From Clostridia bacterium (lineage in GTDB: Bacteria; Bacillota; Clostridia; Oscillospirales; Acutalibacteraceae), in NCBI GenBank assembly GCA_017481575.1, contig JAFUPA010000068.1:42117-106116 (forward strand): DNA of 64,000 bases, written 5' to 3'. Positions 37,411-39,993 of the stretch are shown in pieces. The notes under the pieces are model-generated. The model did not search any database, was not told where the DNA came from, and was given only the letters and a program-made list of their open reading frames with translations. Position 1 is the first letter of the stretch. Every line of letters starts with the position of its first letter. A program made the translations under genes and the position numbers.

Positions 37411-38364
37411 CTAAAAAATGATATCAAAAATCAATTTACTATGGTTTTCAGTTATTGCCTGACCTTCCATGTCGCATTTGCCTTTGATACCCATTTTGTT
37501 GATAGCACTATCTATATTAGTTGCAGTTTTTTTAGACATCGTTGCAGAAACCGCACCCTCTAAAATCAAAGTTTGGTTTTTAATTGAATTAGTACTGTTG
37601 CAACGCATTTCTATTAAGTTTTTTATATTGTTATCATAAGCAAACCATTTTAATTCCGGGATTTTCACGTCTTCACTTCCGACAAATTGAACATCAAGCT
37701 TACCCATTCGTTGAGACTGACCTTTGTAAGAAGATTTTTGTTCACTTTTAGCAGAAGAATTTGCATTAAAACCGTTGATAATGCCATTTCCTCCTATTGC
37801 AGAGGTCGTCTTATTACTTGTTTTTTCAATGATTGACTCAATAATTTCTATTGAACAACTTTTTGCTCCTAAAGAGTAAGCAATATTTTGTAATTCAGCT
37901 AATCTTTCTTCGTGAGCTTTGCTGAAAATACAATCCGTTTGGATGAAACGTGTTCTGTCAAAGCGGTCAACATAATAAATCGAATCACAAATTGGAGCAG
38001 GAATGAATTGAATTCCGCAATCATTTATGAATTCATCATAAAGATGCAAAACTTCCATGCCGTTTTGGTTACTTGTCCAACCTATTGCACCATCACAAAC
38101 ATCAATATCTCGTCTTTCGGCATCGTCAACAATAACGATCATATTTGGAATGTTAAAATCATTTCCAAAATATTTATCAGGAAAGAGGGGATTGTACTTC
38201 TTTAATTTCCTCAAATAGTTTTCGTTTTTTGTTTTTTCTGTTATCTCTTTGGCGGTTTTTTGAACTTCCGAAGAAACTTTTTTGCCAAATTCGGATGTTT
38301 TGTGCAATGCGTCGGAAACTGCTTCAGAGCCTTTCTTTACATCTAAATTTAATTTGAGTTTCAT
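37411..38364 (-). CDS. Orphan 317-residue protein, AT-rich gene
   Basis: This protein is not recognised. The first ~55 residues are a Lys-rich amphipathic helix/coiled-coil-like stretch (KKGSEAVSDALHKTSEFGKKV, TAKEITEKT). Residues 60-175 look like a globular alpha/beta part (MIVIVDDAERRDIDVCDGAIGW; Cys at several positions). A low-complexity Ser/Asn linker (about 185-215) leads to a C-terminal part ending SKLIFDIIF, a beta-rich segment. There is no signal peptide or transmembrane helix. RBS AAAAGGAG is good. Codon use is more AT-rich than the housekeeping genes. It lies next to the DUF559 repeat unit. Confidence 0.72.
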   Translation of the reverse strand: MKLKLNLDVKKGSEAVSDALHKTSEFGKKVSSEVQKTAKEITEKTKNENYLRKLKKYNPLFPDKYFGNDFNIPNMIVIVDDAERRDIDVCDGAIGWTSNQNGMEVLHLYDEFINDCGIQFIPAPICDSIYYVDRFDRTRFIQTDCIFSKAHEERLAELQNIAYSLGAKSCSIEIIESIIEKTSNKTTSAIGGNGIINGFNANSSAKSEQKSSYKGQSQRMGKLDVQFVGSEDVKIPELKWFAYDNNIKNLIEMRCNSTNSIKNQTLILEGAVSATMSKKTATNIDSAINKMGIKGKCDMEGQAITENHSKLIFDIIF

Positions 38365-38400: not shown

Positions 38401-38448
38401 GCCTCCCTTGCCCTAAAGGGAGGGGAACCGCGTTAGCGGTGGAGGGAT
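38401..38448. repeat. Left terminal inverted repeat of the DUF559 unit
   Basis: GCCTCCCTTGCCCTAAAG... with a GGGAGG return arm, then an ACCGCG-TT-AGCGGT stem and GGAGGGAT. It supplies the last five codons (Gln-Ser-Leu-His-Arg) and the TAA stop of the DUF559 gene. Confidence 0.8.
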
Positions 38449-38795
38449 TGTTTTATTAACATATCGATATATTCACAAACACCATCGAAGTTTTTGTTAA
38501 TTTCATTGTTCGGTATTCGGATAACCGTTAGATTTCGGTCTTCGATTTTTTCTGTTCGTATTTTATCTTTTTCTATTCCAGTTTCTTCATAGTGCTGTGA
38601 ACCGTCAAGTTCTATTATAATTCTTGCTTGATGACAATAGAAATCCACAATATAATTATCAATTACTTTTTGACGAAGAAATCGGACGGGATAAGTTCTT
38701 AAAAAGTCGTACCAAAGATGTTTCTCTTCTTTGGTCATATTTTTTCTTAGTTCTTGTGCATTTTTGGTAAGTGAAGAGTTGTGTTTTCTATCCAC
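38433..38795 (-). CDS. DUF559 (Vsr-like) endonuclease-domain protein
   Basis: This 120-residue protein starts at GTG (38795). The GGAGGG of the right inverted repeat stands 5 nt upstream as the Shine-Dalgarno site; an in-frame TTG at 38843 lies inside the repeat and is less likely. NAQELRKNMTKEEKHLWYDFL, FLRQKVIDNYIVDFYC and RIIIELDGSQHYE are DUF559 hallmarks; the Asp of VDFYC and the ELDG-SQH segment form the PD-(D/E)xK-like site shared with Vsr nicking endonucleases. The C-terminus (VIRIPNNEINKNFDGVCEYI) is typical. Cytoplasmic. Its substrate is unknown; the position between inverted repeats suggests it acts on, or travels with, that repeat. Confidence 0.9.
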   Translation of the reverse strand: MDRKHNSSLTKNAQELRKNMTKEEKHLWYDFLRTYPVRFLRQKVIDNYIVDFYCHQARIIIELDGSQHYEETGIEKDKIRTEKIEDRNLTVIRIPNNEINKNFDGVCEYIDMLIKQSLHR

Positions 38796-38798
38796 TGT

Positions 38799-38850
38799 AT
38801 CCCTCCGTCTTTTGCTTCGCAAAATCCACCTCCCTTTAGGCAAGGGAGGC
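38799..38850. repeat. Right terminal inverted repeat of the DUF559 unit
   Basis: The reverse complement begins GCCTCCCTTGCCTAAAGG, then GTGGATTTTGC-GAA-GCAAAA and GGAGGGAT, matching the left copy except for the variable middle stem. The GGAGGG provides the ribosome-binding site of the DUF559 gene. Confidence 0.8.
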
Positions 38851-38898
38851 TGTGCTATAATCAGTTTTATATAAAACTTTTTAGACTATGTCTTGGTT

Positions 38899-39993
38899 TT
38901 ACCACCTGTTTTCAACATACTCACAAAAAGCGAAAAGGTCTTTGATTTCAATTTTTGTGCCGTCGTCGAGTGTAACATCGCCGTTCCAGATTCCGTAGAC
39001 CTGGTGGCAATTCATTCTGCCGACCTTGAAGTCAACGTCGCTGTGGTTGTCAAGCGTCGGCTTCATTGTCATATTAAATCTTCCGTCCTCGGAGATGAAT
39101 TTCCATTCCTCCATAAATCTGCCTTTCGGGAACTTTTCAACGTCAACCGCACCGAATTTGTGTGCCTTTCCGTCATAAAAAATTGCTGTTTCCGTAGCAT
39201 AGCCTTCGTTGCCGATTGCCCACGTAATTTCAAAGCCGAGGCTGTGCTTTGTTCCGTCACCGTCGTAGTGGTAGGTCGAGCCGCAACCCCAGTACCAGAC
39301 CATTTTGTGAACGGTGTTAACACGTCCCCAGTCCATGGCGCAGAATGAGTTTTCCTTTGACATTGTGTAAACATAATCGCCGTATTTAAAGGTAACGTCG
39401 CAGGGCATACACATCTGTTTTGTGGTCATAAAGTATTTTGTTTTGTCCTCATCAAAGGGGAGTACGGTTGTGATTGTTTCCGAGCCGGGCAAAATGTCCA
39501 TACTGACATTCACTTCACAGAGCTTGCCCTTGTGCATCTTTTTGTACCACAGGGTTCTTTCTGTTTCTTTGGTATTGAAATCAAATTCAGCCTTGCCGAT
39601 TTTGTCTTTGTAGCGGTTCGGCACATCACCCTTTACGGGCGGAACGTGCTTGTTTGCACCGATAAAATACTGAATTGCATCAACAATTACTTCTCCTGTC
39701 GTAAGGTCAGTGAGCTTTGCGCTGACGTAGCCACCGACATTGATGTTTGCAAAGCTGACGAGAATCTGCATTTTGCCGTCCGACATGGTATAAAAATCCC
39801 ACTCCTTACGGCTCATAATTCCCGTTTTGACATAGTCACGGTTGTATGTAAAATAGTTGTGCCTTGCCCAACCCTTTGCAAGCAGCTTGCCGTCGGGAGA
39901 AAGAAGCGGAGTTTCTTTTATATATTCAATCTGCTTTGACGGTCTCTTCCATTCCTTAAAGGGGACATAGGTACGCTTTAATTCATTACTCAT
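38899..39993 (-). CDS. DUF2804 family protein
   Basis: This 364-residue cytoplasmic protein fits DUF2804 by eye: an early LLSPDGKLLAKGWARHNYF, the EWDFYTMSDGK segment, a long beta-rich body, and the aromatic CAMDWGRVNTVHKMVWYWGCG stretch near residues 228-250. No enzyme activity is established for the family; its beta-sandwich content hints at carbohydrate or lipid binding. ATG at 39993 follows GGGAGG. It stands alone between the DUF559 unit and a glycosyltransferase gene. The interval 38851-38898 shows nothing else. Confidence 0.8.
   Translation of the reverse strand: MSNELKRTYVPFKEWKRPSKQIEYIKETPLLSPDGKLLAKGWARHNYFTYNRDYVKTGIMSRKEWDFYTMSDGKMQILVSFANINVGGYVSAKLTDLTTGEVIVDAIQYFIGANKHVPPVKGDVPNRYKDKIGKAEFDFNTKETERTLWYKKMHKGKLCEVNVSMDILPGSETITTVLPFDEDKTKYFMTTKQMCMPCDVTFKYGDYVYTMSKENSFCAMDWGRVNTVHKMVWYWGCGSTYHYDGDGTKHSLGFEITWAIGNEGYATETAIFYDGKAHKFGAVDVEKFPKGRFMEEWKFISEDGRFNMTMKPTLDNHSDVDFKVGRMNCHQVYGIWNGDVTLDDGTKIEIKDLFAFCEYVENRW

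Follow-up and report, generated by a model that had tools for sequence, protein, structure and literature searches.

The 64,000-nucleotide stretch of DNA analysed here (the window; contig JAFUPA010000068.1 of a Clostridia bacterium of the Acutalibacteraceae) holds at 38401..38851 a short element in which a gene for a DUF559 nuclease is enclosed by two inverted repeat units. By sequence, these units resemble the class II intrastrand triplex motifs, repeats which also lie beside DUF559 genes in several phyla. This pairing across phyla suggests that the nuclease is the missing partner of the scattered repeats. We consider the chances slightly better than even that the element is a minimal selfish unit, consisting of a 120-residue Vsr/EDxHD-like nuclease and its cognate class II intrastrand triplex repeat, that spreads in a homing-like manner. 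Somewhat more tentatively, at a little under an even chance, DUF559 and the BoxC/PIT-like repeats may be the halves of one widespread selfish system, in which the nuclease reads a folded purine triplex and homes from unit to unit.

The nuclease gene (38433..38795, minus strand; 120 codons, GTG start, TAA stop) was assigned to DUF559 by Pfam (E=8.7e-30), in agreement with an earlier note made from the letters of this sequence, and is the sole frame of at least 60 amino acids in 38401-38851, there being no transposase gene inside the element. It is flanked by a right, upstream unit (38799..38851, minus strand) and a left, downstream unit (38401..38449, plus strand), an architecture that we write as >[N]<. 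Each unit is laid out as hairpin 1 (CCTCCCTT, a loop and AAGGGAGG), then hairpin 2 and then a short tag. In the right unit these parts lie at 38829-38849, 38809-38825 and 38799-38806 and read, on the minus strand, GCCTCCCTTGCCTAAAGGGAGG-TGG-ATTTTGCGAAGCAAAAG-AC-GGAGGGAT, ending at 38799. In the left unit they lie at 38402-38423, 38427-38440 and 38441-38449, with ACCGCGTTAGCGGT as hairpin 2 and GGAGGGATT as the tag. Both units share the opening GCCTCCCTTGCC, the left with one extra loop base. The fit of gene and repeats is as exact as the earlier note had described: the GTG at 38795 lies 5 nt (ATACA) past the GGAGGG of the right unit, and the TAA at 38435-38433 falls within the left unit, so that the last five codons are repeat sequence. 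By its position the right-unit tag can serve as a ribosome-binding site, and the frame stays open upstream as far as a TTG at 38843, within the same unit. Folded as single-stranded DNA, each unit is predicted to form two hairpins (-12.4 and -13.5 kcal/mol; z -4.4 and -3.4), and no shuffled sequence folded as well (0/200). The palindrome CCTCCCTT-N5-AAGGGAGG, with up to three mismatches, occurs 3 times in the window compared with 0.11 expected, and two of these occurrences are the ends of the element.

The earlier note had recognized the two hairpins and missed a putative third strand, which is supplied by the tag. The tag corresponds to the 3′ arm of hairpin 1 reversed, with G kept as G, A given as A or T, and C given as T, and the right-unit tag fits this code with the arm AAGGGAGG at 8/8 positions. 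A larger sample was extracted as hairpin 1 then hairpin 2, with the tag unconstrained (314 units, 245 distinct, 238 usable). The mean score for the mirror code was 6.84 out of 8 versus 5.58 (standard deviation 0.056) with tags permuted among units, an excess of ~22 standard deviations. Scored as a direct repeat, the tag reached 5.25 versus 4.95 when permuted, and both the direct repeat and Watson-Crick pairing with the 5′ arm were rejected as weaker than the mirror code. With the register set by G positions only and at most one G mismatch allowed, 71 of 111 distinct arm-tag pairs passed; the other 40/111 include some from the wrong strand or with fewer than four G. In the passing pairs an arm A faces A 103 times, T 57, G 5 and C 2, and an arm C faces T 22 times, A 3 and C 1. 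A tag T opposite A and a tag T opposite C disfavour a pyrimidine-motif triplex on the other strand. Examples of arm and tag come from unlike families: AAGGGAGG/GGAGGGAT, GGAGAAGG/GGATGAGG, AAGGGGGC/TGGGGGAT and AAAGAGGG/GGGTGATT. T opposite C (T.C:G) is a known exception in the purine motif, and the geometry is compatible with a third strand, with the arm leading from the loop down to the base, hairpin 2 lying in between, and the tag leading back from base to loop. The antiparallel purine motif permits A or T opposite A (PMC4666352). Judged from the letters, the tag code is that of an antiparallel purine triplex; its mirror symmetry with the arm is not a product of duplication, and we count it toward the triplex reading. 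We regard the arm-tag covariation as evolutionary evidence of selection for triplex pairing in natural DNA, and such triplexes may form in the cell.

Repeats able to form triplexes are on record from many bacterial genomes, and one type is known from more than 260; the class II intrastrand motifs include the E. coli repeat BoxC/PIT, named TM-ECO there (Holder and others, PMC4666352). In the accessible text of that paper class II motifs are described as abundant, stable in vitro, tied to strain variability and without an assigned function, and the E. coli sequence as folding into a triplex in vitro; the same text holds no word beginning with DUF or nuclease. The window units share with this class the order of Y arm, R arm and reverse-Hoogsteen strand, as well as the code G.G:C, A.A:T and T.A:T, and both kinds of repeat are dispersed and vary between strains. 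Unlike class II motifs, the Clostridial units carry a variable hairpin in the second loop, which therefore lies outside the ITxF loop criterion of 1-6 nt; outside Clostridia the second loop is mostly 3-6 nt.

The association of DUF559 with this motif is well supported. Protein similarity alone gave 79 loci, nearly all in Clostridia, and at 73 of them the DUF559 gene has a class II motif no more than 400 bp away, compared with 30/377 random windows taken from these loci, 0/79 shuffled windows and 14/109 other genes there. A second set was taken from a plasmid collection, where 16 records, at least one of them chromosome-sized, were picked for taxonomic spread, flanks unseen, from 43 with a match (40 listed). 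The motif was found at 12/16 of these, against 6/86 windows, 0/16 shuffled windows and 4/30 other genes, and the set spans Azospirillum, Sphingomonas, Sinorhizobium, Neisseria, Klebsiella, Lelliottia, Photobacterium, Pseudomonas, Deinococcus, cyanobacteria and Thermoactinomyces. A single detector was applied to both sets; it overlooks units whose stem has two mismatches and may read a palindromic hairpin 1 on both strands. An end-to-end match was reached by 55 of the 108 loci scored (109 in all), versus 0/216 shuffled and 3/342 shifted windows. An inward-facing pair is nearest to the gene in 42/109 loci, and the arrangement seen most often is such a pair with the gene enclosed, exactly so in 35/109. 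The pairing thus extends to E. coli and other phyla, which the earlier note had missed.

Some individual loci deserve mention (L numbers denote loci and G numbers genomes, G000 being the window's own). Far outside Clostridia, in Ktedonobacteria bacterium brp13, DUF559 has matching double-hairpin ends (L195). Arrays of triplex units in both orientations lie beside DUF559 in N. gonorrhoeae (L233 3496-4190, spacing 281 bp) and Photobacterium (L241 3372-4954, spacing ~148 bp). A DUF559 gene has also been reported immediately upstream of a mam gene in Faecalibacterium prausnitzii A2-165 (accessible text of PMC8836110).

Genomes were compared at one per species, many of them incomplete. In the window's own genome the core of hairpin 1, hairpin 2 and tag is present in 6 copies, 2 of them at DUF559 genes, and within the genus the core pattern matched 10/18 genomes, with 0 matches for a reversed control pattern; DUF559 is present in 14/18. 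By reading, 4/4 of the DUF559 genes in the window's genome have such units on both sides. The units there are of two types, with the tag GGAGGGAT or GATGAGGTG. On its upstream side L001 has a complete paired unit, which stops some bases short of the DUF559 gene, and L007, in the window's genome, is a unit pair without the nuclease; in G003 there are paired units of ~160 bp whose two unlike ends are the same. In the left end of the C36 copy (L004 1380-1500, G000) a solo unit sits within the hairpin 2 loop of another unit, so that single units seem to insert independently. Many contigs of G003, G004, G006, G010 and G012 begin or end within ~120 bases of a unit; the units thus seem to break assemblies, so that copy numbers would be underestimates. 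Of 150 genomes from the window's family, 33 have both DUF559 and a GGGAG-type unit, 15 have only DUF559, 15 only the unit and 87 neither (Fisher p=1.6e-10, uncorrected for relatedness). Full-length DUF559 without a GGGAG-type unit was found in eight family genomes, a count that refers to that type only. The recurrence of the flanks with and without DUF559, and the differing position of the gene among relatives, agree with the mobile unit that the earlier note had proposed; two of the outcomes that it had named as refuting, flanks that do not recur and a gene invariant in position, were thus not observed.

Other locus sets were selected by DUF559 similarity, and only the 33 loci gathered by the DNA pattern of the unit (6 from G000 and 27, the first listed places, from nine congeners) inform on the genes between units. 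At 19 of these an opposite unit lies within 1500 bp, with spacings of 19-51 bp in 14 pairs, 182 bp in one and 351-371 bp in four. All pairs more than 200 bp apart contain DUF559 (4/4), and no other gene was seen between units in this small, congeneric sample. Of the 14 loci without a partner unit, seven run out at the end of a contig.

The nuclease and the type of its ends are co-inherited. In a tree of 107 nucleases, 101 of them labelled by their nearest motif and the broken copies L024 and L029 excluded from the alignment, the hairpin-arm type changes 18 times (85 rows and 7 types, states with at least 3 members) versus at least 42 times in 200 shuffles; for genome-contig loci alone there were 14 changes versus at least 30. 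The ratio of nonsynonymous to synonymous change (dN/dS) of the window gene is 0.07-0.09 against L030, L035 and L031, and nine nuclease pairs gave 0.06-0.19, which argues that the function of the protein is retained under purifying selection. The near-identical pair L015/L026 gave 0.23 on a dS of 0.03, and two further pairs were dS-saturated. When ranked by fold, the window protein was nearest to the Neisseria DUF559 protein, followed by the homing endonuclease I-Bth0305I and Vsr, and so has the Vsr/EDxHD catalytic-domain fold, with D51 and E62 presumably the catalytic residues.

Empty and occupied states, which the earlier note had recommended comparing, were found at the L015/L026 site. Here G003 and G005 have a unit, DUF559, an inverted unit and a further unit, versus a single unit at the same base, followed by the downstream sequence, in G009 and G000. 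The junction was read in these four genomes, the anchor being unmatched in G010, G004 and G013. Between G003 and G005 the element is identical at 539/547 positions (98.5%) and the flanks at 431/500 on the left and 379/428 on the right (86-89%), with the nearest left mismatch 22 bp from the element edge. Because the identity of the element is above that of its flanks, we infer a transfer of the cassette between these species that kept tight borders and postdates the divergence of the flanks. The arrangement would be the expected trace of homing into a repeat, that is, entry at an existing unit with duplication of that unit. The L035 site, read in 10 of the 17 genomes with a match, is occupied in G003, G004 and G005 and has a solo hairpin 1 in G009, G010 and G012, the upstream gene of G009 being the same as in G003 and G005; another solo unit is present in G000 and none in G013, G014 and G001. 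At the L012 site, upstream of a gene that we take to be leuS, G005 is occupied and the 13 other genomes examined are without DUF559, G013 having a degenerate hairpin 1 (G002, G007, G008 and G011 were left out). In several relatives a different short palindromic repeat, approximately GGGGCGGAT...ATCCGCCC, fills the gap at this site (L266-L269, L277). At L011 (G004 C60) a diverged repeat of ~60 bp from the 3′ end of the upstream gene lies beyond the DUF559 element, which looks as though entry had replaced the end of the gene.

At the locus of the window itself, the gene at 38899-39993 beside the element is kept in 10 relatives, and the adjoining stretches examined are without DUF559. An exact empty site was not definable, as a 317-amino-acid neighbour on the other side (37411-38364) is also missing in the short-gap relatives. 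This gene is absent at the orthologous site in G005, G009, G004 and G010, where the outer two genes are nearly adjacent, and it may have arrived jointly with the element.

E. coli K-12 carries the DUF559 gene ycjD, with a full BoxC 168 bp away, and in FDAARGOS_943 a second full BoxC (L226 1714-1747) overlaps the end of ycjD at 1725. YcjD and NGO0050 of Neisseria gonorrhoeae (PDB 3hrl) are both DUF559 proteins encoded beside triplex motifs. The fabI-ycjD-sapF region was found at ≥80% in 3333 of the 5375 E. coli genomes with a match. In two of the remaining genomes, O157:H7 PNUSAE146744 and STEC299, fabI is followed by an efflux operon, and in the former the sequence runs from fabI and this operon through to sapF without ycjD. 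The same alternation at fabI-sapF is described in PMC12817139, in the accessible text of which the word "repeat" is absent. No YcjD relatives were found in viral contigs. At another E. coli site, tkt-ypfG (L225, L305-L308), BoxC alternates with a palindromic REP-like repeat; the BoxC allele is covered at ≥80% in 811 genomes, and the REP-like repeat takes its place in all three of the non-BoxC alleles that were retrieved.

We propose the following mechanism for the element. Hairpin 1 would form a short duplex, and the tag, which follows the second hairpin in Clostridia and, in the other taxa examined, a stretch of mostly 3-6 nt, would lie back along the purine arm of hairpin 1 as a third strand. 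The nuclease would read the folded unit in single-stranded DNA, for example at a replication fork, and nick or cut there. The break would then be filled by host recombination or by template switching, with homology to unit-flanked copies as the guide, and the nuclease cassette or a short unit would be copied into it. Solo units and the ~160-bp paired units would be non-autonomous forms. Binding and cutting of the triplex by the nuclease, and cutting as the driver of spread, are parts of the mechanism that we infer.

There are precedents for such an arrangement in the REP/RAYT systems (PMC2817692, accessible text), in which a single small gene also lies between two inverted palindromic units, the units are also dispersed genome-wide without the gene, and gene and repeat type are co-inherited. 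By analogy, we think that DUF559 may serve the triplex repeats as their enzyme, in the way that RAYTs serve REPs. The REP/RAYT comparison made in the earlier note therefore holds as anatomy but not for the enzyme, which is a PD-(D/E)xK, Vsr-like nuclease rather than a Y1 transposase, and the window unit differs further in having a tag that obeys the triplex code. I-Bth0305I is unlike the window system, being a long multi-domain protein with a target of nearly 60 bp (PMC3943268, accessible text) rather than a bare catalytic domain with a dispersed repeat.

Several points weigh against homing by the nuclease. PD-(D/E)xK nucleases hydrolyse DNA and are not known to join strands, so that spread would have to rely on host repair. 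Units without detected DUF559 occur in 15 of the 150 family genomes, in up to 13 copies (G051), as well as in G006, which is 95% complete. No motif was found by the detector at 6/79 and 4/16 DUF559 loci, the latter in Picosynechococcus, Pseudanabaena, P. aeruginosa and Thermoactinomyces; such DUF559 genes without repeats, which the earlier note had named as adverse if found at the same locus, are a minority and lie at other sites. The nearest units outside Clostridia are often outward-facing rather than inward-facing. Empty sites are few, and a solo state would equally result if a cassette were lost by recombination between direct units, so that the solo unit of G000 and G009 and the solo hairpin 1 of G009, G010 and G012 can be recombination scars; deletions in paired E. 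coli motifs do leave a hairpin (PMC4666352). According to the accessible part of the same paper, in vivo footprinting of the E. coli motif gave no support for a stable triplex, and the support for a triplex given here comes from sequence alone.

It is possible, but in our opinion unlikely, that the units spread by replication slippage or by another transposase and that DUF559 is cargo riding with the ends. The units without detected DUF559 would be expected if so, as would a nuclease that is not known to have strand-joining chemistry, and E. coli motifs have been tied to instability of a replication type (PMC4666352, accessible text). However, DUF559 has these ends in several phyla, for which a single capture is insufficient, all 4 of the gene-wide pairs among the 19 in the congeneric genomes hold DUF559, and the low dN/dS values show that the function of the protein is kept. 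An IS200/RAYT transposase was considered as the partner and rejected: PF01797 was matched in 12/18 genus genomes but in none of G000 (72.9% complete), G002, G006, G008, G009 and G017, several of which are incomplete, and when 8 of the 22 listed Y1 places were checked for a few end motifs, 7 had none and L044 had one AGGGAGG.

Slightly less probable again is a housekeeping role, in which DUF559 would act as a repair nickase of the Vsr kind on triplex hairpins that are stalled or mismatched and resolve them, with the adjacent units regulating the gene and the dispersed ones being surveyed substrates. The Vsr fold is consistent with this, as is the placement of the Caulobacter DUF559 protein VsrA behind the DNA-damage response (PMC12907096, accessible text), and folding of the right unit, which sits at the expected ribosome-binding site, could regulate translation. 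However, the position of the gene varies among close relatives, E. coli strains differ in having or lacking theirs, one element shows greater identity between species than the sequence flanking it, and unit type tracks the nuclease tree. That the repeats are ordinary terminators or ribosome-binding sites, resembling each other by chance or composition, is very improbable given the end-to-end matches and the tag code set out above, even though hairpins do occur at gene ends.

A link between DUF559 and triplex repeats was not found in the literature searched, most subscription papers lying outside the search, in agreement with the statement of the earlier note that no mechanism had been described for such a unit. 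A nuclease has been predicted for ycjD (PMC1189080, accessible text), and a name search of the literature for NGO0050 (one PvuRts1I structure paper) and ycjD found no tested function. The link joins triplex repeats without a function or partner gene to DUF559, a common family of unknown function, and makes both testable, in E. coli K-12 as well as elsewhere. If the nuclease does recognise the folded triplex, its specificity would be for a non-B DNA structure, and there would be a route to bacterial repeat families beside those of the HUH and DDE enzymes. It would also mean that a mobile element can have a third-strand code, not a base-paired sequence, as its recognition site, and the BoxC/PIT-type repeats would gain an origin.
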